Shown here: positions 2,247-16,904 of the stretch, piece after piece
How positions within the stretch are numbered: position 1 is the stretch's first letter
Layout: every line of letters begins with the position of its first letter
Origin: Patescibacteria group bacterium
GTDB lineage: Bacteria > Patescibacteriota > Microgenomatia > UBA1406 > GWC2-37-13
Reading direction: 5' to 3'
DNA: 41,382 nt
NCBI GenBank assembly: GCA_026415975.1
Contig: JAOAFZ010000008.1
Coordinates: 1 to 41,382 of the forward strand
Position numbers and translations under genes: made by a program
Notes under the pieces: model-generated
What the model was told of the DNA's origin: nothing
The model's database searches: none
What the model saw: only the letters and a program-made list of their open reading frames with translations

Positions 2247-4137
2247 ATGAGTAAAAAGCTCGAGCACAAGATTGAGGCAAATGATACATCAATCGGCGCA
2301 CTGCTCAAATAACAAAAGTTCACAATAGAATATTTCCAACGTGAATATCGCTGGCAAGAGAAGCACATGAGGCTTCTCATAGATGATCTCACATCAACTT
2401 TCCTCAAATCATTCAGGCCAGAGCACAAGCGGTCAGAGGTCGAAAATTACCAAAACTATTATTTGGGCCCGGTGGTATTTAGCGAGCGGGATGGTCTTAA
2501 GTCAATTATTGACGGTCAACAACGGATTACATCCATCACGCTCTTTCTTATTTTTCTCAACCATCTACAGAGAGATTTTGCAGAAAAGGTGTCGATTAGC
2601 GATCTCATTTACTCAGAAAAATACGGGGAGAAATCGTTCAATATGATTGATGAAAATAGAAGAGCATGTTTGACCGCACTATTTGAGACGGGCGAATACT
2701 CTCTCCAAAAAGAAGATGATGAGACAGTGCAGAACATTGTGGCACGTTATGAGGATATCGATCAGGTGTTTCCGGAAGAAATGAAGAAATGAAGCAGTGC
2801 TTCCGTACTTTATCGATTGGTTTAAGGAGAATGTTGTTGTCGTCAAGATAACGGCATACTCAGATGAAAACGCCTACACTATCTTTGAGACGATGAATGA
2901 CCGTGGTCTCAATGTCACACCGACCGAAATGCTTAAGGGGTATGTACTCTCAAAAATTACAGACCCATATCAAAGAAACGAGATGAACGATATCTGGAAG
3001 ACCCAGATTCAGAGACTCCATGAGGTCGAGGATAACGCTGATCAGAATTTTTTTCAGGCATGGTTTCGGGCAAAGTATGCAAAAAGTATCAGGCCGGGAA
3101 AAGCCGGGTTTGAAGATCAGGATTTTGAACTTATTGGTTCCCGATTTCACAACTGGTTTAAAGAGAATCATAAAGCGCTATCTGACATACATACCTCAGA
3201 TGACATGTATTCCTTTTTCAAAGAGCAGTTTCCCTATTTTGTAGATATTTATCTTCAGATTATTTCCGCACAAAATTCACTGAATGCGAACATTCCCCAT
3301 GCCTACTATATCGGCAGATGGGTGATCGGAGAATCATTGCAACATCCACTTCTTCTTGCTCCCATACAATTTGGAGACGACCTAAAGACGATTGAGCGAA
3401 AGATTGATTTTATGGCCAGATATATCGAGACTTTTACTGTGCGACGATCAGTAAATTATCGGAAGTTCGGTCATTCCTCAATAAAATACACGATGTTCAA
3501 CCTTGTCAAAGCGGTCCGTGACAAGGACCTCACGTCATTGGCAAAAATTCTAGTAAAAAAAGTGCGCGAGATTCCAGAAACTTGGGAGGGGATCATGAAT
3601 TTTGGCCTTCACGGCATGAATGGTGTCTTCGTAAAGCATCTGCTATGCCGGATCACGAGCTATCTTGACAGAATTGTGGGGAAAGATACTACATACGTCA
3701 CATATTACCATTCCAACCGGGAAGCAATTTGAGATTGAGCATATCTGGGCAAATAAGTTTGAACAACATACCGATGAGTTTGATCAGGAGAATGAGTTTT
3801 CCGCTTGGCGCAATTCTATTGGAGCGCTCGTATTGTTGCCACAAGGCACAAACCAATCCTTCAGCAGTGATCGGTACGAGGACAAGCTTGCGCACTATTT
3901 GAAGGAGAATACCTATGTACAGACACTTCACCCTTCCTTTTACGAAAAGAATCCGACATTTGTCAACTCTGCGATAATTCAGAGTTGGGTTTTAAACCCC
4001 ATGAGCACTTTACCAAACAAGATATCCTCGATAGGAAAAGATTGGTACAGCGCATTTGTGAAAAACTGTGGTCAGAGGAGTATTTTTTTGAGAATTTGTT
4101 AGAAACGAAACATGTAGAGAGTAATCAACATGAATAG
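2247..4137 (+). pseudogene. GmrSD-type (DUF262 + DUF1524) restriction protein, inactivated
   Basis: The reading frame starts at ATG 2247 (MSKKLEHKIEAND), meets TAA at 2310, and continues with IEYFQREYRWQ and the DUF262 signature DGQQRITS. It shifts frame near 2790 (into LPYFIDWF and TIFETMNDRGLNVTPTEMLK). A second shift near 3700 leads into the DUF1524 HNH-like segment (FEIEHIWANKF, WRNSIGALVLLPQGTNQSF). A third shift near 3975 restores KPHEHFTKQDILDRKRL to the stop at 4135. In the GmrSD/BrxU family DUF262 is the NTP-dependent half and DUF1524 the His-Asn-His nuclease half, together cutting modified (often glucosylated 5-hydroxymethylcytosine) phage DNA. One nonsense codon and three frameshifts mean it is very unlikely to work. 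Confidence 0.88.
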
Positions 4138-4771: not shown

Positions 4772-4883
4772 TGCTTCTTCCCGACAAGGTACAGATAGAG
4801 AGTACAAAAGCAACAAAAGAAGAGAAGACAAGGTCGGAAGTTTATCCTGTGTACTTCCAGGGTTTTCTGGCAATTCTTTTAGG

Positions 4884-5134
4884 AGGAACTACCGGAGTGT
4901 ATGTCTGCTCTCTAGGTGAGGCACGTGTTTTGTTATCTAAATACCCTTTATCCACCACAATTGAGCAGCCAGTGCTCGTCCTTTTGGTGCGTCATGTGCA
5001 TGTCTCGGCCCTATTTTGTTGATTGGTAAACCACCCCGTGATCTTCCCAGCGATTGCACCCCCTTTTTTAACCGCATCTAAAAGCTGACTGGTGACTTTC
5101 TGCTTATGCAACTTGCAGCATCTTTCCAAATACT
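4884..5134 (-). repeat. Dispersed repeat, copy 1 (inverted partner at 11491-11700)
   Basis: About 190 bases (4884-5071) match the reverse complement of 11513-11700. By hand, a 119-base core around the 20-mer at 4950 differs at about 15 positions, roughly 87% identity. A further 22 bases (5113-5134) match 11491-11512, with about 41 bases between them absent from copy 2. The two copies face each other around the P450/helicase module. They could be remnants of one duplicated gene, or a repeat through which the module was inserted or inverted. Confidence 0.8.
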
Positions 5135-5399: not shown

Positions 5400-6692
5400 A
5401 TGTCAGAAATATACGAGAGATGGCGGCTTCCCCGTAGTCTTAACACAGGGGAGATAGTTGGAAGATTGCTTCAATTGCGCGATCCTTTCCCCGTACCCAT
5501 GGGTTTGAGCGGAATTGTGCTAACAACCGCAAACAGAAAGTTAATTTCATATTGGAGCAATCCTGATTATTTTAATAAGGTTGGGCCTAGATGGCAGCCG
5601 ATAAATGAATGGACCGGTCCCAGATCCGCATTTATGCCAACAGGAGAAGACTGGGGTATACGCAGTAAGGGCGCAAAAGACGCGTATAGAAATGATCTAT
5701 TTGGTCAATGGCAAGGAGAACCAATCGCGGAAATTACAAAGGCTCTAAACATACCTTCCGATGGCATGGTGGATAATTTGTATTCCAAGGTAAAAGCCTT
5801 AGCCTTACAGATTGCGGCAGACTTATTATACGGAGTGAAGATCGAGATGGCACAAGCAGAAAGAATTGCATCTGCTTATGGGACTCTTAATGCTTACAAT
5901 GCGCGCAACTCGCTTACCGGGGGATTGTTGGACCGTCTTAGGTGCCCTCCGACTAATTTTGATGCCTTTGCAGCGTTTAAAGAGGATGAATTGCCTCGGG
6001 CTTCTGCGAGTCCTTTCGATTGGCTTCATGGCGATTTTACCGAAAGCCTGAAAGCAATCTGGAACTTTGGTCGAATGCTTGTGCAACAGTCGAAGCAATC
6101 GGCAATCGCAGAAAAAATGCGCAATGCGGGTTTATCCGAGGATGATCAGATACGGGAGGCAACTGTTCAGATTGGGGGTGCGCACGGGGCACCCGGAGCC
6201 CTTATCAGCAGCGTATTAACATGTTTGGCAATGCCCGAAAATATACAATACCAAAGAATGTTGCGATCTCAACCGGATCTTTTGCCGTCAGTTATCCAGG
6301 AAACATTGCGGCTTTACCCGCCATTCTGGGTGCAGTTGCGACATTGCGTCAGCAATGTGAATTTGCCGGGAATAAGCATCGGGGCAGGCACAGATGTGTT
6401 ATTCTGCACCTATGTTGCAGATAGGGATCCTAAAATATATGGACCCAAAGCCGACCGGTTCATGCCGGAGCGTTTTGCAAGTAACCCCATTCTTAGAAAA
6501 CACCTTACCTCATTTGGATTCGGTCAAAGGCGCTGTCCCGCAGGTCATATTGGGGTGGAAATTGCAAGGCTGGTTGTGCAAGAAATAGTTGAAAAATATT
6601 CTTTCGAAGCGGTTGGCACCCCTCGTTTTACCTTTGGTGACACACTGCATCCGAGTGATACGAATCGTATGCTTTTTATCGCTCGAAGTTGA
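5400..6692 (+). CDS. Cytochrome P450
   Basis: This 430-residue protein has the full P450 signature. The K-helix ExxR is ETLR (301-304), the PERF motif is PERF (356-359), and the heme loop FGFGQRRCPAG (372-382) supplies the thiolate ligand Cys379. There is no signal peptide or membrane anchor, so it should be soluble like most bacterial P450s. The I-helix, where the acid-alcohol pair (A/G-G-x-D/E-T) normally activates O2, reads GGAHGAPGA (259-267) and lacks both residues. P450s without that pair often use peroxides or rearrange them (CYP152 and CYP74 types), so a reductase-independent reaction is an inference; no ferredoxin or reductase gene is in this window. P450s are unexpected in such reduced genomes. 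The substrate is unknown. Confidence 0.93.
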   Translation: MSEIYERWRLPRSLNTGEIVGRLLQLRDPFPVPMGLSGIVLTTANRKLISYWSNPDYFNKVGPRWQPINEWTGPRSAFMPTGEDWGIRSKGAKDAYRNDLFGQWQGEPIAEITKALNIPSDGMVDNLYSKVKALALQIAADLLYGVKIEMAQAERIASAYGTLNAYNARNSLTGGLLDRLRCPPTNFDAFAAFKEDELPRASASPFDWLHGDFTESLKAIWNFGRMLVQQSKQSAIAEKMRNAGLSEDDQIREATVQIGGAHGAPGALISSVLTCLAMPENIQYQRMLRSQPDLLPSVIQETLRLYPPFWVQLRHCVSNVNLPGISIGAGTDVLFCTYVADRDPKIYGPKADRFMPERFASNPILRKHLTSFGFGQRRCPAGHIGVEIARLVVQEIVEKYSFEAVGTPRFTFGDTLHPSDTNRMLFIARS

Positions 6693-7182: not shown

Positions 7183-10100
7183 TTACGTTATACCACGAAT
7201 AAAATACCTTTTATCACCACTACTGATGATAAGGGCTGGTAACCCTCGGGATGTAAACTCTCGATTAAAGCTATAGATCGCGTTTTCGAAACTTCCCAAT
7301 ACAAAACCTTTTATAGTTCGCATCTCAAAAGAACTGAACGAACCTTTTTCCATTGCTGTATCAAGATAATCCACAAACCGGCCCTTTGGTACGATCACAA
7401 AAGGTTGTATACTAGATTTAGTAGGGAATACAACAATGCGGCGTGCCCTCTGTTCAATTGTATTTTCCCCGGTGGGTTTTCTCCAAACTACCTTAGCCTC
7501 CGGCAGTTCTATAACGTGTGCGTTCGTACGATCACTTGTGCTGGTGGCCCAGCGCAGCGCTTCTCTGTTTACCGCTTCAGGCAGGTTAAGCTGAGCTAAA
7601 CAAGCGTATGTATCATCTCCTGTTCCTTGAAGCCTTTGCCACACAACAAGCCTTACCCCGAACGCATACTCAATTCTACGTAACTCATTTCGAGCTGGGG
7701 GATTATACTCAGCGGCTTTTCCCATTAATTTTTCTACTATAGTATTGTCTAAAAATCCCCGATTATTAATGAGCTCCTTGATTATATGCGACAATTCCGG
7801 ACACTGTCTTGATACTGGGATAAAAACTGGTGATTGAGCTTTGTTTTCACTACAAACTAGCACGAAATCGTTTTGAAAGACCCCGTTCGTTTCTTCGGCT
7901 TGTATATACCGGACTCGCAGTCTTTCATCAAATAATTGATGTGTCGTTTCTAACAACTCTGGTTGAAATTCACTTAGGTATTCAACCACGCTCTTGAGCC
8001 ACTCAAGATTAATTGATTTAGCATTTAGATTCTGTTCCCCAGTCGGCAACATCAGAAGCCCTCTAGCATACCAGTAGATGGTATTTTTGTATTTAAGTGT
8101 AGACCCTTTTTGATAGTCTTTTTCAGGAGGCTTATAACGATCCAGCGTTGTAACGGGTACTCTTCTACTCAGTTCATCATTTATATAGTCATAAAGCGTT
8201 GGAGGACCCAGATGAGGAAAGTGCATATTAAGAAGCCAGCCGGGAATAAATCCGCCATTTTCGGCGGCTTGTTCCAGAAGTGCGTTTGTAATTTCGGAAG
8301 CAGGAACCTGTTCGACAGCTTTTAAGCGCCTGCAAAGTGCCACCACGCCTCCGGGAGCATTGCTCTCTGTTGATTCCTTGCTGGTGATACATTGTAAAAT
8401 GTATGGCCCCAGGGAATATTCGGCCTTATCGGTCAGCGGTTTTCCTTTACCCGTTGCAGATCTGGTCTTTGGTACAGGCATGGTCTCCTGCATGCCCATT
8501 TTGCCACCGTCTTGCACCCCTTCCAAATGATCACCCCCATGAGCGAAGAGACTAGAAGCGGGAGCCTGGTCAGGATTACCGGTGATTGGAGGTTGCGCGG
8601 CTTCTGCCAATTTAGTTATTGCTGCAGCTCCCTCTTGATTTTCCCGCTCCTGTTGATTGCGAGTAGTTTCTTGTTCGGACCACAGCCTGATAACATTCCT
8701 GACGAATGCCAAAACGGTAGCATTGTCAGGTTCCTGTGCAGAGGGTATATTCTGTGGATTCCGCTTTTCTTCCTTGGCCTTCCGCTGTTCATTCATTTTT
8801 GCAATCAGCGATTTCCGTTCTTCCCGCTGGGTTAGTAGTGACTTTGCCAGAAAAAAAATATGAGGAGGTATTTCCTCAAATCCTGGCTCAAAATGCAGTT
8901 TAAAGAATCTACTATATTCTTCAAGGAGCACGATCGCATCACGTATTGGTTGTTCATGTGCTTGATAATACTTGTCGAATATGTTAGCTAAAGCAATCTG
9001 AGTTAGTTTCTCATCGGGTAACTCATCAAAAGCGTTTACGTCCTTTAAGATTCGCACTCCTTCATTCCGGTAGTAGTTGGCTATACGCCTGAGGCAGCGT
9101 TCCATAAAGGTTTTATGGGCTTGAGAATCTACTAAACTTGGAAATGATAGGTCTTTTAAAACTTGTCTGCCGGATAGCTCGCTTCTGATCTGGGCATAAA
9201 TGTGAAATGTATCAATTGTTACTTCGCGATCGAGTAAACCATTTTCAATCCAATACTCCATATGTTTCAAAAGATCTTCTCTGGACATTTCACTATTGAG
9301 CCAGGTGTTTGAAGTTAAAAAATCACCGGGCGAGGGGAAAACAGGGGAGAATGGTATTGGTTCCGGAGCCTCTTGTAGATTCGCTTCAGTTTGAGGGTGT
9401 GTGGTAGTGTACACGGGTATATCAGGTTTCAGCGTCTGTGGATTTAGAATTTGAGGGTCATTTGATATCATTATTGCCCAGATATCAGGTTTGTATCCCC
9501 ACGTTTCCCAGCTTGAAAGCAGGCTCTCGATAAATGAATTAAGATTAGCAGCTTGGGTACCAATCTCTGTTGCTTTTGGTGTGAACATGGGATTTGACCG
9601 CTGCCACAACCACACCATATATTGAAGCCGCATACCAAGAGTACAATATTCGCCAAGATCCACATGAACACCTTGATCTTTCGACCACTCTGCGAGCGCC
9701 TGTTGCGTGTTTAGTTGAGTAACAAGAAGGCCCTCAGAGCCAAACCTGCCAATTAACTTCAGCATAAGTGGTGCATACTCCCGAAATCTGGTTGCCCTTA
9801 AACTGTCAAGTTGCTTTGAAAGTTCTTCAATAGCAACATCAGGGGAAATGGCGGGCACAGCTGGCGGAGCTGATATTTCGGATATATCTTCCATCCATGG
9901 GGGCTTTTGACCGGTGATACTAGCATTTACCCTTATGTTTTCTATTATACGTTGCAGAAGTAAAGTACCTTCTGACCCTGAAGACCCGTTGGTAACCAAG
10001 GGAATAATAATGGTATTTTGCTGAAAACCTCTATTCGGGCGGTGAATCCTGTGTACAGCCTGATCAAACTGGGCGCCGTTTGGCGGTAATGTAAGAAAAA

Positions 10101-11316
10101 TTACGTAGGTTTTCGATTCTATCGGGTTCAGTCCCAGAGACGCAGCAGCTGATTCATAGGTACAAAGAGCCACTCTGTTTTGTTGGAGTGAAGCTATTTC
10201 CGTTGAGAGCCTAAAAGCACCACTGTAAAGTTGCGTTGCTCTGATGCCTTTTTTTTGTAATAATTTACGCAAAGATTCAAGCGAGTACGGGGCCGTTTCG
10301 GATTCACTTTCTGCGAACCTTGAAAAAACAATAATTGTGGCGTTCGGGTTTTCAAGAAGCTGATCGATAAGGTGTGCTACCCACGGATACAGTATCGAAG
10401 CCTCATCTTGAAGCGTTGTATTTTGCTTATCTGTGGGAATACGTAGAATAAATGTCCTAATTGGTGGCATTTCAAAAAAATCTTCCTGATGGCGACATAT
10501 AGCAGGAATTTGAACATTATCTGTACCCGTCCACATTTTCAGCTCGGAAACATCTTTGTTTACCGGTGTCCGAGTTGTTATCATAAGATGACCACCGCGT
10601 CTTCGTAACCTAGACCATAGATTAAGTAGTGCCTGAGTGCGCTTTGCCTCGGGATTCGCACCGCCTAGTTGTAGCTCCTGTGCTTCGTCTATTACCAGCA
10701 GATCAGGCGCAATCGTACTTTCCAGGCTTTCCGTTAGATTTTCAAGAAGAAAAGCCTCATGGGAAAGAAATATCACTCCTGAGGAAAACCGGCCTAATTG
10801 GTCCAATTGTTCCCGTGGTGTAAGGTTATTGTTAGGGTCATTCCATAGGAACATTTCGTAAGGGCTTACTCCCGCTTCGAGGTAATCTTTATGGGCCTGC
10901 TGAATCTGACGGTTTGTTCCGACAACGATCATTCTACTTTCTCCGGCTCCAAAAGTGGGTTCGAAACGGTACGCTAGCCAAGTGAGGAGCGACGTATAAG
11001 TTTTTCCCATGCCATAGTCATCGTGGTTTGCAACGATAGAGTTTCCAATTAGCATGTGAATTAATTCCATTGCTCCCGCCAGCTGATATATATAAGGGTC
11101 TCGGCGGAGACCGAGACGCTGAAATTCCGGAGCGATTTTAATCCAAAAATCCCGTATCGTACGGAACAATTCCGGGTAGGGAACAGCCTCTTCTTGAAAA
11201 CCGCCAAGTAACACACGTTGAGGAATGCCTTTGTTTCCAAAATAACGATGAATAGCAGCCAGTTTGGGAACGTAATTTTCATGTGAAAAATCAAATTCAG
11301 GTCCCCGTGATGACAT
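7183..11316 (-). CDS. Giant SNF2-type helicase/ATPase with a large unassigned C-terminal region
   Basis: This 1377-residue protein starts with a superfamily 2 SNF2-like motor. Motif I is DDYGMGKT (99-106), motif II is VIDEAQ (208-213, DEAQ in place of DEAH), motif III is ITTRTPVN (246-253), and motif VI is QAVHRIHRPNR (419-429). About 900 residues follow that I cannot assign. A polar, probably disordered linker at about 820-960 separates a helical middle part from a C-terminal part with mixed helix and strand character. No nuclease, methyltransferase or protease motif is evident. Such motors remodel or translocate on DNA, for example as RapA-like factors or in defence systems such as DISARM and Dpd. 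The gene has its own strong promoter and converges with the P450 gene. A role in defence or regulation is inference only. Confidence 0.85.
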   Translation of the reverse strand: MSSRGPEFDFSHENYVPKLAAIHRYFGNKGIPQRVLLGGFQEEAVPYPELFRTIRDFWIKIAPEFQRLGLRRDPYIYQLAGAMELIHMLIGNSIVANHDDYGMGKTYTSLLTWLAYRFEPTFGAGESRMIVVGTNRQIQQAHKDYLEAGVSPYEMFLWNDPNNNLTPREQLDQLGRFSSGVIFLSHEAFLLENLTESLESTIAPDLLVIDEAQELQLGGANPEAKRTQALLNLWSRLRRRGGHLMITTRTPVNKDVSELKMWTGTDNVQIPAICRHQEDFFEMPPIRTFILRIPTDKQNTTLQDEASILYPWVAHLIDQLLENPNATIIVFSRFAESESETAPYSLESLRKLLQKKGIRATQLYSGAFRLSTEIASLQQNRVALCTYESAAASLGLNPIESKTYVIFLTLPPNGAQFDQAVHRIHRPNRGFQQNTIIIPLVTNGSSGSEGTLLLQRIIENIRVNASITGQKPPWMEDISEISAPPAVPAISPDVAIEELSKQLDSLRATRFREYAPLMLKLIGRFGSEGLLVTQLNTQQALAEWSKDQGVHVDLGEYCTLGMRLQYMVWLWQRSNPMFTPKATEIGTQAANLNSFIESLLSSWETWGYKPDIWAIMISNDPQILNPQTLKPDIPVYTTTHPQTEANLQEAPEPIPFSPVFPSPGDFLTSNTWLNSEMSREDLLKHMEYWIENGLLDREVTIDTFHIYAQIRSELSGRQVLKDLSFPSLVDSQAHKTFMERCLRRIANYYRNEGVRILKDVNAFDELPDEKLTQIALANIFDKYYQAHEQPIRDAIVLLEEYSRFFKLHFEPGFEEIPPHIFFLAKSLLTQREERKSLIAKMNEQRKAKEEKRNPQNIPSAQEPDNATVLAFVRNVIRLWSEQETTRNQQERENQEGAAAITKLAEAAQPPITGNPDQAPASSLFAHGGDHLEGVQDGGKMGMQETMPVPKTRSATGKGKPLTDKAEYSLGPYILQCITSKESTESNAPGGVVALCRRLKAVEQVPASEITNALLEQAAENGGFIPGWLLNMHFPHLGPPTLYDYINDELSRRVPVTTLDRYKPPEKDYQKGSTLKYKNTIYWYARGLLMLPTGEQNLNAKSINLEWLKSVVEYLSEFQPELLETTHQLFDERLRVRYIQAEETNGVFQNDFVLVCSENKAQSPVFIPVSRQCPELSHIIKELINNRGFLDNTIVEKLMGKAAEYNPPARNELRRIEYAFGVRLVVWQRLQGTGDDTYACLAQLNLPEAVNREALRWATSTSDRTNAHVIELPEAKVVWRKPTGENTIEQRARRIVVFPTKSSIQPFVIVPKGRFVDYLDTAMEKGSFSSFEMRTIKGFVLGSFENAIYSFNREFTSRGLPALIISSGDKRYFIRGIT

Positions 11317-11490: not shown

Positions 11491-11700
11491 GAGTACTTGG
11501 AAAAATGTTGCTCAAAAAAAGGGGAAGCAATCGCCGGGAAGATCACGGGGAGGTTTACTAAGCAACAGAATAGAACCGGAACACGCACATGACGCACCAG
11601 CAGGACGAGCACTGGTTGCTCAATTGTGGTGGACAAGGGTATTCAGATAACGGAACACCTGCCTCACTCAGAGAGCAAACACACTCTCCGGTAGTTCTTC
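11491..11700 (+). repeat. Dispersed repeat, copy 2 (inverted partner at 4884-5134)
   Basis: This copy matches the reverse complement of 4884-5134 as described there, but lacks about 41 internal bases. Both copies keep a TGA in the frame that reads KKGEAIAGKITGRFT, so the shared sequence was either already non-coding in that frame when duplicated or is not a gene. It fills the spacer between the helicase promoter and the surface-protein gene at 11748. The rest of that spacer (11351-11490) shows only short unconvincing frames. Confidence 0.8.
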
Positions 11701-11735
11701 ACAAATCAAAAAGTCTGTTTATCCAGTCACTTTGG

Positions 11736-11741
11736 TATCAT
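11736..11741 (+). promoter_or_regulatory. Possible -10 box close to the start of the surface-protein gene
   Basis: TATCAT ends six bases before ATG 11748, repeating the short -10 to ATG spacing seen at other genes here. No good -35 box is visible, so the assignment is weak. Confidence 0.35.
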
Positions 11742-11747
11742 GGATAC

Positions 11748-14018
11748 ATGAGAAGCTACCATGATTCGTTCCATATCTTAATCAGCTCCTTCTCTCTTTT
11801 GATTAAGGGCATGGTGATCCTTGCACTCATAACGCTTGTTTGGCCACTTGCCGCTTACGGTGAGGGGGTAGCAGCGCCTCGTGTGGAAATTCAGGTTATA
11901 CAACGTCTCGAAGGACAGGAAATCCCCCTACCGGGGATCTACGTTGAGACGTACACACTCACCAACGCTCCTATTCCAGGCCAAAATCCAAATGATACTT
12001 CGAAGGGGAACGTTATAAACATGCGTTACAGACGTACGAATCCTCAAGGGATCGTTAGTCTTGATCCACTTGCTCCTCAACCATACAACACGATAACACA
12101 AATCGACATTAACGGGGACGGGCGGCTAGACACATTTTTTTTCCCAACTTTACCTAATGCATATACAGCTGCTATAAACAAACAGCTTATGACAATAAAC
12201 GGGGAGCCAGTCACCGAAGACCTGACGTACTGTCAAGGAGATCCAGGCTACAAGTACACCAAAGTATACAAGAACGGCGTCACGGTAGAAGATCGCAACG
12301 GACATGACTGCCGGGTTCTGTCTCGTATGAATATGCTCTGTTACAGCTCTCCGTTCTACTCGAGTCCCATTTTACGAACCGACATGAGAGGAAAGTTTGA
12401 ATATACAATGCGGGTACCAGCAAAAAGCGATAATCTGATTAAGATTGAACGATGCAATGGTCCGTACACGAGCAATTTCGGCGAAGGTAAGGGATACACC
12501 GCATGTACAATGTCCGATCCACTTGGCAGGGGTTTTGATGTATTGCGGTACGGATATGGTAATACTTTTGACAGCATCCGGTTCACTGCGGTGTTTATAC
12601 CAGATATCACACCGACTCCAACACAAACTCCAACATCCACGCCGCGTCCCACGAATACCCCAACATTAACGCCTACTCCTACTCCCACGCCCACTCCTAC
12701 TCCCACGCCTACGCCCACCCCCACTCCCACACCTACGCCAACACCTACCCCAAAGCCCATCCGCACTGAATCGTTTCGCGACGAAACCACACTAAAACAA
12801 CAGGCGAGTAAGGGGTCAATACGGATATATTGCCCAGAAACCGCGATTTGTGCTTCTGCCGTAGCACCGGACGGGGAAAGATGCACTACTTCTCGGGCCA
12901 GCAACTCCGGTAATATCCATATCAAACGGGTCAAGATCTCCGGCATCGCCAGCATATTTGGGCGCATTTTCCGAGAAGATAAAAAAGAGTTGTGGATCAT
13001 GGAGTGCTACAGGGGTCTAGAGGGTGACTCTACCTACACCTGTACCACGGGGAGCGATGACACAGACGAAAAACTCATGGGACCAGGCCGAAAGAATACC
13101 ACGAAACTTAAGAACGCGATCGGCTACCAGTCGAACTTGTTCCAGATCGTAAATGGAAAAGCAGTACCTGTCGCTCCGGCGGCAATAACAGAACGATCAG
13201 TATGGCCAGAATACGAACTAGAAACCGTCCTTACTCGTGCCGCCGCAAGTGTTGTGGTGATTGCACATAAAACGAATATGCCCGATCGGGTTGATCCGGG
13301 CAGTATTGGCGGCCAACAGTTTGGCACCTTATCGTTTGGTTCGGAATGTAAGATTGTTCACGATCCATACGGACGGGTATTTGATGCAGTCACACTAGAA
13401 CCACTTGAAGGTGTTCGCGTTACGCTCTTCCGCCTGACCGACTCTGGCTACGAACCTCTCCCAATGGAAAGAGTAATAGAAGGCGTTGATCCCGTGTTTG
13501 CAAATCCCATCACCACCCGGGCCGACGGAGCATTTACATTCCATGTGCCGGACGGAACATACCGTCTGTCAGCGGATCGTCCGGGGTATAGCACACTCAC
13601 AGACACCAAACACACATCCACACGGGGGTTATATTCCGGGGGAATATATCACGGTGGTGATATCGTGCAGTTCGGGCATGCTGTCGAAACAAATATTCCA
13701 TTGATGCCGGAAGACCGGGGTGCCGCAGAACGATTCGCGCGACAAAACCGGGTCTCATTGGTCGAAGGAAAGGTAACAACCATCGGCACAACACGTCGCG
13801 TCAGCGGCGTCACATCCCATCCCCACAGTCGAGTCACTTTGGAAATGGTTACTCCGGAGGGTAAATCCTTAGAAACCCGATCCTTAACTGCCGACAACTG
13901 GGGAGGGTTTTCTACAGTGTTTAACCTGCCGGAAGATCGTACCGCCAGAATACGGATAAGCCTCGAAAAAACGCCTCCGTACCGCCCTGCACCTCGCAAC
14001 ACGTTCTGGATGGAATAG
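11748..14018 (+). CDS. Large secreted surface protein with a Thr-Pro linker
   Basis: I place the start at ATG 11748 because a signal peptide follows at once (hydrophobic core MVILALITLVWPLAAYG). Upstream codons in the same frame lie inside the dispersed repeat. The mature protein has an N-terminal Cys-containing domain with a calcium-loop-like DINGDGRLD, and a Thr-Pro linker at about residues 288-335. A Cys-rich middle follows, then a SIGGQQF segment and a carboxypeptidase-regulatory-like Ig fold (DPYGRVFDAVTLEPLEGVRV, then TRADGAFTFHVPDGTYRL). A second such fold seems to end the protein. It is a paralog of the convergent gene ending at 14162. It probably sits on the cell surface; binding target unknown. 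Confidence 0.8.
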   Translation: MRSYHDSFHILISSFSLLIKGMVILALITLVWPLAAYGEGVAAPRVEIQVIQRLEGQEIPLPGIYVETYTLTNAPIPGQNPNDTSKGNVINMRYRRTNPQGIVSLDPLAPQPYNTITQIDINGDGRLDTFFFPTLPNAYTAAINKQLMTINGEPVTEDLTYCQGDPGYKYTKVYKNGVTVEDRNGHDCRVLSRMNMLCYSSPFYSSPILRTDMRGKFEYTMRVPAKSDNLIKIERCNGPYTSNFGEGKGYTACTMSDPLGRGFDVLRYGYGNTFDSIRFTAVFIPDITPTPTQTPTSTPRPTNTPTLTPTPTPTPTPTPTPTPTPTPTPTPTPTPKPIRTESFRDETTLKQQASKGSIRIYCPETAICASAVAPDGERCTTSRASNSGNIHIKRVKISGIASIFGRIFREDKKELWIMECYRGLEGDSTYTCTTGSDDTDEKLMGPGRKNTTKLKNAIGYQSNLFQIVNGKAVPVAPAAITERSVWPEYELETVLTRAAASVVVIAHKTNMPDRVDPGSIGGQQFGTLSFGSECKIVHDPYGRVFDAVTLEPLEGVRVTLFRLTDSGYEPLPMERVIEGVDPVFANPITTRADGAFTFHVPDGTYRLSADRPGYSTLTDTKHTSTRGLYSGGIYHGGDIVQFGHAVETNIPLMPEDRGAAERFARQNRVSLVEGKVTTIGTTRRVSGVTSHPHSRVTLEMVTPEGKSLETRSLTADNWGGFSTVFNLPEDRTARIRISLEKTPPYRPAPRNTFWME
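12609..12752 (+). repeat. Degenerate ACNCCN repeat encoding the Thr-Pro linker
   Basis: About 24 consecutive Thr-Pro-like codon pairs (act-cct, act-ccc, acg-ccc and variants) encode the linker of the surface protein, with a few Gln, Ser, Arg, Asn and Leu substitutions near the start. The 6-base unit repeats in phase, so slippage would lengthen or shorten the stalk by two residues without a frameshift. The antisense strand gives a spurious Gly-Val open frame. Confidence 0.9.
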
Positions 14019-14161
14019 CAGGGAGTACGGTTTAATGGTACATCAACAAGCTAGACATGCCGCATTAACTCGTTGGCTTTCCCAGTCTTTCCCAAACGCA
14101 AGAATGGGTTATACGAAACACATAATCGCGGCACAGATAAAAAACAGCGATATTCTTCCGA

Positions 14162-15955
14162 CTATTTACTAGGCACCGACATTAGGGGGATATTGCGACG
14201 AACCGGCTCTCCCTTTTGTACAATCCAGGTTCCGTCATAGAGAGGACCATATTTACTTGATATCTGAGGGTCGAGAGGTATGGTTGCAGGAAACTGATAG
14301 CCCGGCTTTCTAACGAATAATTTATAATTTCCGTCAGGCACCATAAAAGCAAACGCACCGTCAGCACCGGTTGTAACGGGATTTGTAAAGGTGCGATTCG
14401 TCCTTTCGCCGTAAACGTCTCGAGCAGTAACGGGGACTTGCGTACCCGCGGGAGACTTCATTGTCAACAAAACCTCCGCATTTGCCAACGGAACTCCGGT
14501 TACAGAATCGAAAACTATACCATATGGATCTTTCAGGACAGTGCACCCAGTAGCAGATGTTAATGTTGCGAATTGTTGGCCACCTATGCTCCCATCTGGG
14601 GCGGATGTCGTTAATCCGGGTCGAAATCCGAGCATAAACATGCTGGTCGTGTCGGGAATAGACAGAGATTCCCACTCAACCTCGTCAAGACCTGCGTTTG
14701 TTGATGCCCGAAGATTACGATCAGCAAGTGGTACCCCGTTCTTACCGAAAACAGCAACGGGGAAGTTTCCCGCTTCTATGCCTAGCCTTGAGTCTATCGC
14801 GGGATCCCCCGTTGTGCAGGAGTAAGAATTGCGGGAGCTCAAATCGGTACCGTTTGCGGCCACACACTCGACCAGATAGATGGGTTCTCCAGTTGGCAGG
14901 GCATTCTGCAAGCGGTCAAGTACCGCAAGAATACCACCAACCTTAACACGTTTCTTACCCTCAGACGCCTTGGCAGTACAGCCCGCTGCTTCGTCAGCGC
15001 AACTTCGCGACTCGGTGCAATAGAAATTTTGCCATTCTGTTTCCTTGATATTTGCATCCATCCGTTCAACGGATTTACTGGGTGTCGGAACTTCCGATAC
15101 AAACTCGACAAAGAAGGTAAGGTTCGCGATTGAATTGCCGTGCCCCCAACGAACCACTTTAAATCCACGACCTAAGGGATCGTCGGTTACACACGCGCCA
15201 TAATTGTTGCTTTCTCCAAAATCCTGGGTGTAAGGTCCGGTACATTCGGCAAGTGGCTTCTGTTCACCATTACTGTGCGATACCGCCTTGAATACGAATG
15301 TCCCCTGCATATCCTTGCGCATCACCGGACGGGCATAAAACGGGGAAGTTCCGCAGAGGAAATTCATACCCGATTCAAGTTCACAATCACCGCCGCGGAC
15401 GTTTCGAGTATCGTTTTTAAGACGGGTAAACTTGTAGTTACCACTCGCCATGCAATACTTCGGGTCTTCCGTGATCTCTACACCATTAATATTGACAGTC
15501 AGTTCTTTGTCCGGGTTTGCCGTGTAAGCTTTAGGTGAACCAACGATCCTGAAGGTGTCCATCTGACCGTCCCCGTCGATATCGATCGGTGTTGTGCCGT
15601 ACTGAGCACCTTCCGGGGATAACGTTTCAAACGTGGTTATGCCGTCAGCGCCTGTTTTACGGAATCGAAAATTGACAATATTCCCCTTTGAATCCACTTT
15701 ACCCAAATCCGAGGGGGTGATCGGATGATTTGTCAAGGTAAAAGTTTCGAAATAGATGCCCGAAAGGGGAGTAGTGGCTCCGTCTTTGGTTGCCACTATA
15801 GAAAAATTGATGAGGGGACCTTGGCCTTCCTCTGCGTGTACCACAAAAGGTGCGACAAGTAAAACAAACCCAGCGAGTGCACAGTATATAACGCCTACAA
15901 ATGCAGATTGTTGTATCGAGCAGGAAAAAAAACGCTCAATAACGTTCGATTTCAT
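14162..15955 (-). CDS. Secreted surface protein, paralog of the gene at 11748
   Basis: ATG 15955 is chosen because a signal peptide follows (MKSNVIERF, then a hydrophobic run ending VVHAEEG). Farther-upstream starts would overlap the preceding gene by over 100 bases. The 597-residue product shares its plan with the convergent paralog: an ETFTLTNHPI segment, a DIDGDGQMD loop, a Cys-rich domain (CGTSPFYARP, then CTGPYTQDFGE and DPLGRGFKV), SIGGQQFATL, and a C-terminal carboxypeptidase-regulatory-like fold (DPYGIVFDSVTGVPLANAEV). It lacks the long Thr-Pro linker. The start overlaps the end of the foldase gene by 20 bases, implying coupled translation. It is probably exported and displayed; the role is unknown. 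Confidence 0.8.
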   Translation of the reverse strand: MKSNVIERFFSCSIQQSAFVGVIYCALAGFVLLVAPFVVHAEEGQGPLINFSIVATKDGATTPLSGIYFETFTLTNHPITPSDLGKVDSKGNIVNFRFRKTGADGITTFETLSPEGAQYGTTPIDIDGDGQMDTFRIVGSPKAYTANPDKELTVNINGVEITEDPKYCMASGNYKFTRLKNDTRNVRGGDCELESGMNFLCGTSPFYARPVMRKDMQGTFVFKAVSHSNGEQKPLAECTGPYTQDFGESNNYGACVTDDPLGRGFKVVRWGHGNSIANLTFFVEFVSEVPTPSKSVERMDANIKETEWQNFYCTESRSCADEAAGCTAKASEGKKRVKVGGILAVLDRLQNALPTGEPIYLVECVAANGTDLSSRNSYSCTTGDPAIDSRLGIEAGNFPVAVFGKNGVPLADRNLRASTNAGLDEVEWESLSIPDTTSMFMLGFRPGLTTSAPDGSIGGQQFATLTSATGCTVLKDPYGIVFDSVTGVPLANAEVLLTMKSPAGTQVPVTARDVYGERTNRTFTNPVTTGADGAFAFMVPDGNYKLFVRKPGYQFPATIPLDPQISSKYGPLYDGTWIVQKGEPVRRNIPLMSVPSK

Positions 15956-16904
15956 AGGACTTCTTTGCCATTTGTAACCATTCTTCATAACTTCCGGCTT
16001 CACCCTTCGGAGGATTGTTTCGGGTAACCTGAGCAAACATATACAGAGCTTCACGACGACCGTCGCCCGATCCCACACTTATTAACCTGACCGGAGAAAC
16101 CTCTCCTGGCTTCAGGGAGCGGATTATTTTGTCGAACTCCGGGTCGAATGTAATAGCTTCAGCGGCGGGAACATCTTCAAAAGTAAAGATCGCGTTTTGT
16201 TGCCACACCGGATCGAGCTGGGCAAGCGACGTATCATCCTTAATAATGCGCGCAACCTCGATAATCGATCGATCGCCAGACACAACCGAAGCTCGAGCAG
16301 CTTCTATTTTTTGTTTAGCAATCTGCTTTCCGCGTTCATACCCAATCGGACCCGCAGTGCCGTTGTTGAAGAACCAGATCGATATCACTGCTCCGCTTAC
16401 GGATCCCGTTTGCGCATCGACGGCAGCTTTCACCTTATTGATAGCGTCGCTACGGGCCGTGTAATTTTTATTCATACTGTTATAAAAAGACGGTGACAGT
16501 GTGATCATACCAGCCTTCGCTCCCGCCTGGAGCGCTATGGATTCGTTAATAATTTGTTCGAGAGCTACATCGCGTGATGATTCACGCAGGCCAGCAGGAT
16601 ACAAATCAAGGATTCGTTTCAAATCGGTTGAGTAGAGTACTTCGTCACCTACGACAGCAACGGCTCCTGGCGAGGGGGGTTGCTTAGCAAAGGTGGGATT
16701 GGCGCTTGGCACAACAGAGTTCTCCACCTGATTGCCGGTGTTGTTTTGTGCGGAACCTTCCCGGTTTGTTTCGGCACGCTTGTCCGTATTCCGCAGAATA
16801 GATATCATAAGCACCAGGGCGACAAGCAGTATTACTAACACGCCGCCGATTGCGATCATAAGTTTCGGGTTAGGTCCGGATGACGATGGTAGGGTTGGGT
16901 CCAT
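15936..16904 (-). CDS. Membrane-anchored SurA/PrsA-like parvulin foldase
   Basis: This 322-residue protein has a short cytoplasmic N-terminus, one membrane helix (about residues 16-37), a polar linker, and then a SurA-N-like helical region (VAVVGDEVLYSTDLKRIL, NESIALQAGAKAGM). Its C-terminal segment (FDPEFDKIIRSLKPGEVSPV) resembles the end of a parvulin peptidyl-prolyl isomerase domain. ATG 16904 is preferred over an upstream TTG at 16934. Because its stop overlaps the start of the secreted protein gene, it may fold that client outside the membrane. The parvulin part is divergent, so catalytic activity is uncertain. Confidence 0.65.
   Translation of the reverse strand: MDPTLPSSSGPNPKLMIAIGGVLVILLVALVLMISILRNTDKRAETNREGSAQNNTGNQVENSVVPSANPTFAKQPPSPGAVAVVGDEVLYSTDLKRILDLYPAGLRESSRDVALEQIINESIALQAGAKAGMITLSPSFYNSMNKNYTARSDAINKVKAAVDAQTGSVSGAVISIWFFNNGTAGPIGYERGKQIAKQKIEAARASVVSGDRSIIEVARIIKDDTSLAQLDPVWQQNAIFTFEDVPAAEAITFDPEFDKIIRSLKPGEVSPVRLISVGSGDGRREALYMFAQVTRNNPPKGEAGSYEEWLQMAKKSYEIERY

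Follow-up and report, generated by a model that had tools for sequence, protein, structure and literature searches.

A divergent cytochrome P450 without the I-helix acid–alcohol pair in a reduced Patescibacteria genome

P450s without the acid–alcohol pair

In cytochrome P450s, an acid–alcohol pair in the I-helix normally protonates the ferric-peroxo species, and P450s without this pair are already known. The CYP74 (allene oxide synthase) type is marked by an insert in the Cys loop and an Asn in the I-helix, and the P450-derived glycosyltransferase activators have lost the axial Cys and keep the fold without catalysis. CYP families are usually defined by a 40% identity rule, and P450s generally go together with haem synthesis, electron transfer and O2. 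According to the available part of PMC5377825, the CYP152 peroxygenases have no pair, use H2O2 and carry Arg-Pro in the I-helix instead. In OleT, His, Arg and the substrate carboxylate were computed to supply protons (available text of PMC10988616), and CYP107A1 (P450eryF) works with Ala in place of Thr, the 5-OH of its substrate being the likely proton donor (available text of PMC10741444).

An intact and very divergent P450 gene

The P450 gene analyzed here lies at positions 5400–6692 (+ strand) of the window, by which we mean the whole 41,382-nucleotide stretch of DNA that was analyzed. It is an open reading frame of 430 codons with an ATG start and no internal stop, and its coding score was best in the right frame (0.003, with 0.007 for the intact helicase-like gene of the window), from which the broken stretches differed. 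The product matched PF00067 with an E value of 6.4e-21 and 75.1 bits (cut-off, 22.8), over residues 293–404 only. The ExxR motif (E301-T-L-R304; 6300–6311, +), whose Glu and Arg were invariant in 35/35 comparators, and the PERF motif (P356-E-R-F359; 6465–6476, +), recognized by sequence and comparator alignment, were both present, as was the Cys loop FGFGQRRCPA (residues 372–381; 6513–6542, +), with Cys379 as the axial Cys of FxxGxRxC. A reading made from the sequence only had called the haem loop, ExxR and PERF complete. All three are there, but the Gly found two residues after the Cys in all 35 comparators is replaced by Ala381, turning CxG into CxA.

An AF2 model based on an alignment of 30 sequences (pLDDT, 76.8; pTM, 0.81) was of high confidence over most of residues 211–430 and poor at 1–50 and 175–205. 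Its Foldseek and VIA-align matches were P450s. The top structural match was CYP175A1 (1wiy, 1n97; Z, 33.5; rmsd, 2.6; 341 aligned); its sequence identity was only 18%, however, and the Z scores of the 50 matches listed lay within 3, so that the comparison speaks for the P450 fold only. In the model, the 430-aa protein adopts the P450 fold, which is a prediction and does not speak for haem binding. Together with the open reading frame, the PF00067 score and the three motifs, these results bear out the earlier view that this is a real, intact P450.

It is also the sole PF00067 match in its genome (1,312,130 bases in 10 contigs; 96.6% complete, with about 3% possibly missing; contamination, 0), and hence, as had been proposed, a lone P450 in a reduced genome; a size of 1.31 Mb fits Patescibacteria, relatives having 0.6–1.8 Mb. 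A protein search of 57 genomes revealed a match in 3, and PF00067 had 2 carriers among 372 genomes of the class and 2 among 379 of the phylum, the own genome being included in each of these three samples, which overlap. P450s are rare in relatives of the source genome. Elsewhere in the phylum they were carried by three small genomes, G017 (P450 locus L003), G045 (L004) and G467 (L006). These P450s were 17–19% identical to ours; L004 and L006 keep (D/E)T, whereas L003 has Glu-Pro at the pair and heads an operon-like run.

In that run (L103:7019-13854), the P450 was followed in the same direction by amidohydrolase-like, AsnRS/asparagine-synthetase-like, methyltransferase, S66 peptidase (LD-carboxypeptidase) and HAD genes. 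Presumably the S66 peptidase is of the MccF kind. The run looks like a small-molecule biosynthetic operon. This phylum thus has rare P450s, including one in an apparent biosynthetic operon.

In a tree of 36 rows, our P450 had the longest end branch (2.82), and no row was more than 23% identical to it. Its position is uncertain: a 92/75 fork joined it with L003 and three actinobacterial P450s, and L004 and L006 were placed elsewhere. Full-length identity reached 29% at most (L008, two-sequence alignment), and local identity in C-terminal stretches up to 40%. The best sequence relatives were mostly actinobacterial, and the nearest by score were terpene-type bacterial P450s, chiefly through the conserved C-terminal part. 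No close relative was found in genome contigs by single-protein search or in viral contigs; the 408 plasmid records retrieved were all below 60% identity, and a probe built from a two-sequence alignment gave no matches. The family search and tree that the sequence-only reading had called for thus point to a very divergent P450, rare among relatives, which would found its own CYP family by the 40% rule.

Likeness to known families was partial. P450s of the CYP170A1/pentalenene-oxygenase type gave the best PDB sequence match (3dbg; E = 5.2e-18) and the best NCBIfam match (3.5e-19), and the best plasmid match adjoined a terpene synthase. The likeness was, however, almost confined to the last third of the protein, and no terpene synthase was present among the scanned window proteins. 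Membership of CYP170 or the terpene P450s was rejected on that C-terminal limit and on the score with the NCBIfam albaflavenone model (68.7 bits; cut-off, 700). CYP74 membership was rejected because the Cys loop is of standard length and the I-helix motif has no Asn, as judged from the P450 sequence alone. The model of the P450-derived glycosyltransferase activators (TIGR04515) was rejected at 44.6 bits against 343, Cys379 being present.

P450s were also seen on viral contigs. In L011:4075-8478 (IMG/VR), one with GHETT lies beside SDR-like, luciferase-like and 2-oxoglutarate-oxygenase-like ORFs, as identified by eye, and L012–L014 hold additional ones. Among the literature matches listed, no paper on a Patescibacteria P450 was found; the available parts of PMC12416667, PMC7125106, PMC5816076 and PMC11610984 do not describe one, the term P450 does not occur in the available part of PMC7507113, and 9ULW had no literature match.

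The I-helix and the haem pocket

The predicted I-helix (residues 247–277; 6138–6230, +) was one unbroken helix in the AF2 secondary structure. It holds GGAHGAPGA (residues 259–267; 6174–6200, +), where the sequences and alignments of relatives mostly have AGH(D/E)T(T/S), and residues 256–269 include no Asp, Glu, Ser or Thr. MAFFT set Gly263-Ala264 on the acid–Thr columns; alignment by hand gave Ala264-Pro265 from the N-terminal anchor (DQIR) and His262-Gly263 from the C-terminal anchor (P-E past the helix), and an HMM of the homologs left the stretch unaligned. The pair of canonical O2-activating monooxygenases is missing whichever register holds. The absence of Asp/Glu-Thr from GGAHGAPGA, which had been read from the sequence, was thereby upheld, and neither the MAFFT alignment nor either hand register placed the pair elsewhere in the modeled helix.

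The homolog set comprised 90 loci, of which 3 were dropped as cut short. In the 87 aligned, the acid column held Glu 60 times, Asp 22 times and other residues 5 times, the Thr column had Thr in 85, Ser in 1 and Pro in 1, and 81/87 had the (D/E)T pair (the others being HT twice, GT, QS, EP and NT); these proportions are valid for this set only, since most members had been collected by searching for DRF[MD]PERF or GGAHGAPGA and do not form a random sample of P450s. The set also included 4 viral loci, 3 plasmid and 3 same-phylum sequences, and 80 were retained from the 192 confirmed P450s that a masked-motif probe had yielded. GGAHGAPGA was absent from all 87 homologs.

The same reading had gone on from the loss of the pair to a peroxygenase or a peroxide-rearranging enzyme. 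This step was not supported: the CYP152 Arg is missing, and CYP107A1 works without the Thr by using a substrate OH. Because CYP152 and CYP107A1 both depart from the pair, its absence does not decide between use of peroxide and substrate-assisted use of O2. The CYP152 enzymes OleT, P450BSbeta and CypC resemble our P450 in lacking the pair and in having a Pro in this region of the I-helix. In CYP152, however, Arg precedes this Pro, whereas Pro265 has no Arg near it. CYP152 membership was rejected, the I-helix Arg-Pro being absent and the NCBIfam CypC equivalog scoring 25.9 bits against 600.

CYP107A1 offers the other comparison, since it has Ala (Ala245) in the Thr column, where MAFFT sets Ala264 of our P450. 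A reductase-driven monooxygenase with substrate-assisted protonation of this kind, receiving electrons from either a FAD/NAD reductase-like protein encoded on contig 8 or a non-Fer2 carrier, is an alternative to peroxide use, and departures at the pair do occur in other P450s (G-T in L010, E-P in L003). CYP107A1 nevertheless retains its acid, Glu244, where our P450 has Gly, meaning that the acid has been lost as well. We regard this alternative as rather unlikely.

Across the 35 comparators, the P450 kept 12 of the 14 columns conserved in at least 90%, the two lost being those of the I-helix Thr and of the second residue past the Cys, a Gly. In addition, the C-helix Arg/Lys present in 35/35 comparators is Ser89, adjoined by Arg88. 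At the 80% level it kept 20/30 columns, and the comparator L003 kept 18/30; since L003 is a P450 in an operon and keeps fewer columns, losses of this sort have no diagnostic value by themselves. The changes are located at the haem, and they resemble a remodelled active site within a preserved scaffold more than random decay. What marks this P450 is the combination: both residues of the pair lost, C-x-A, the C-helix Arg/Lys lost, and no relative exceeding 29% identity along the full length.

The lost haem-pocket residues, the long tree branch and the regions of poor AF2 confidence also fit a P450 that is non-catalytic or dying, either a recent import that binds a ligand without chemistry or a decaying gene, in a cell unable to make haem; the weak TIGR04515 match may be set beside this. 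The 430 open codons, a coding score that favours the correct frame and the retention of the axial Cys, ExxR, PERF and nearly all of the most conserved columns argue against it, and we likewise consider it rather unlikely. The P450 comes from one genome assembly, and no orthologs were found.

Gene neighbourhood and probable acquisition

The left 5 kb or so of the window is AT-rich and decayed. It begins with a tRNA cut by the contig start (1–71, +; Rfam RF00005; anticodon TGG by eye; no ARAGORN call), no second copy of whose end was found as an island border. It continues with a probable serine-recombinase remnant with a zinc ribbon (307–840, −; PF13408, E = 0.0017, below the cut-off) and a GmrSD restriction gene that is disrupted and spread over three frames (2367–4102, +; PF03235 and PF07510 in successive frames; PADLOC). 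An inverted repeat of about 190 bp (left arm, 4883–5069; right arm, 11515–11700; 86% over 187 columns) encloses the P450 gene and, convergent with it, a gene for a 1377-aa helicase-like protein (7183–11316, −; Helicase_C, E = 2.7e-4, below the cut-off; phrog_62 DNA helicase, E = 5.2e-7). No relative of the helicase-like protein was found among viral contigs, phages and plasmids or in the 56 other genomes. The repeat occurred in two copies only in the genome, with no target-site duplication of at least 6 bases, and its arms resembled the terminal 3′ part of a decayed gene that Pfam did not name.

To the right of this cassette, the window encodes an 809-aa surface protein, of which the genome has paralogs; it was matched in 54/57 genomes, many of these matches being confined to its low-complexity stretch; by eye, some 30 of the 56 other genomes matched beyond it. 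The sequence comparisons indicate that the genes on this side are native to the lineage. The decayed left flank, the inverted repeats and the native genes on the right together make lateral acquisition of the P450 likely, so that the earlier suggestion of an acquired trait is probably right. Within 11589–16078, the window also encodes a convergent pair of secreted proteins that carry CarboxypepD_reg domains and are related to each other (41% identity over residues 76–347); one of them has a long Thr-Pro repeat.

An orphan sequence with mostly actinobacterial relatives, next to a first 4.5 kb of lower GC, might also have come from another organism through assembly or binning. The reported contamination of 0, a GC content (0.470) and codon score of the P450 near those of its neighbours, the paralogs and matches of the gene to the right of the cassette and the P450s of G017, G045 and G467 argue against such an artefact, which we hold to be very improbable.

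Haem, redox partners and the favoured chemistry

No Fer2 ferredoxin, ferrochelatase or COX1 match was detected in the 96.6% complete genome, and none of the four P450-carrying genomes (own, G017, G045 and G467) had a ferrochelatase match. No redox-partner family was found among the 31 distinct window ORFs scanned (GAPDH and many short ORFs lay outside the scan), so the earlier remark that no ferredoxin or reductase gene is nearby held and, for Fer2, extends genome-wide. Two NAD_binding_1 proteins are encoded: a stand-alone FAD/NAD reductase-like protein of 253 aa (L095, contig 8), on another contig than the P450, and a 239-aa protein that we take to be PyrK-like. Haem auxotrophy and missing respiration have been described for Patescibacteria (available parts of PMC11139205 and PMC7507113). 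Missing haem synthesis is ordinary for these bacteria, but its combination with a P450 is unusual. The cell is probably host-dependent, and without ferrochelatase its haem must come from elsewhere.

These findings bear on the readings in different ways. The reductase-like protein favours a reductase-driven monooxygenase, against which stands the lack of Fer2. Missing ferrochelatase and decayed neighbours (the GmrSD frames and the recombinase remnant) favour a P450 without function. Our tentative preference is for a laterally acquired orphan haem-thiolate P450 whose distal oxygen-protonation relay would be replaced by His-Gly-Ala-Pro. Such a P450 would be made in the cell, take its haem from outside and dispense with the standard O2/ferredoxin cycle, reacting with H2O2 or an organic (lipid) peroxide, and His262 or a group of the substrate might serve as acid–base in place of Asp/Glu-Thr. 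We rank peroxide use first because the acid is lost too, no Fer2 ferredoxin was detected and the altered residues lie close together at the haem; a P450 without function comes next, then substrate-assisted monooxygenation and, last, an artefact.

A peroxygenase is thus possible by analogy with CYP152, which likewise lacks the pair that is absent here in every register. The missing CYP152-type Arg-Pro and the low CypC score count against peroxide use, as does the existence of L095, and haem might be bound less firmly now that the C-helix Arg/Lys and the Gly of C-x-G are gone. Action on host lipids is speculation. We think it improbable, though worth stating, that the locus represents a family of His-Gly-Ala-Pro P450s acting on peroxides, carried on a cassette between inverted repeats in an epibiont that is poor in ferredoxin and auxotrophic for haem, and whose host supplies it with haem as well as oxidised lipid; were peroxide use by such an epibiont true, the P450 would be freed from both electron supply and O2 activation. 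If the P450 works at all, it probably does so through unusual chemistry with borrowed haem. A P450 without the pair, in a genome without ferrochelatase, Fer2 or COX1 matches, would test how small a cell can be and still carry out haem-thiolate chemistry, and also how P450s leave the monooxygenase cycle.
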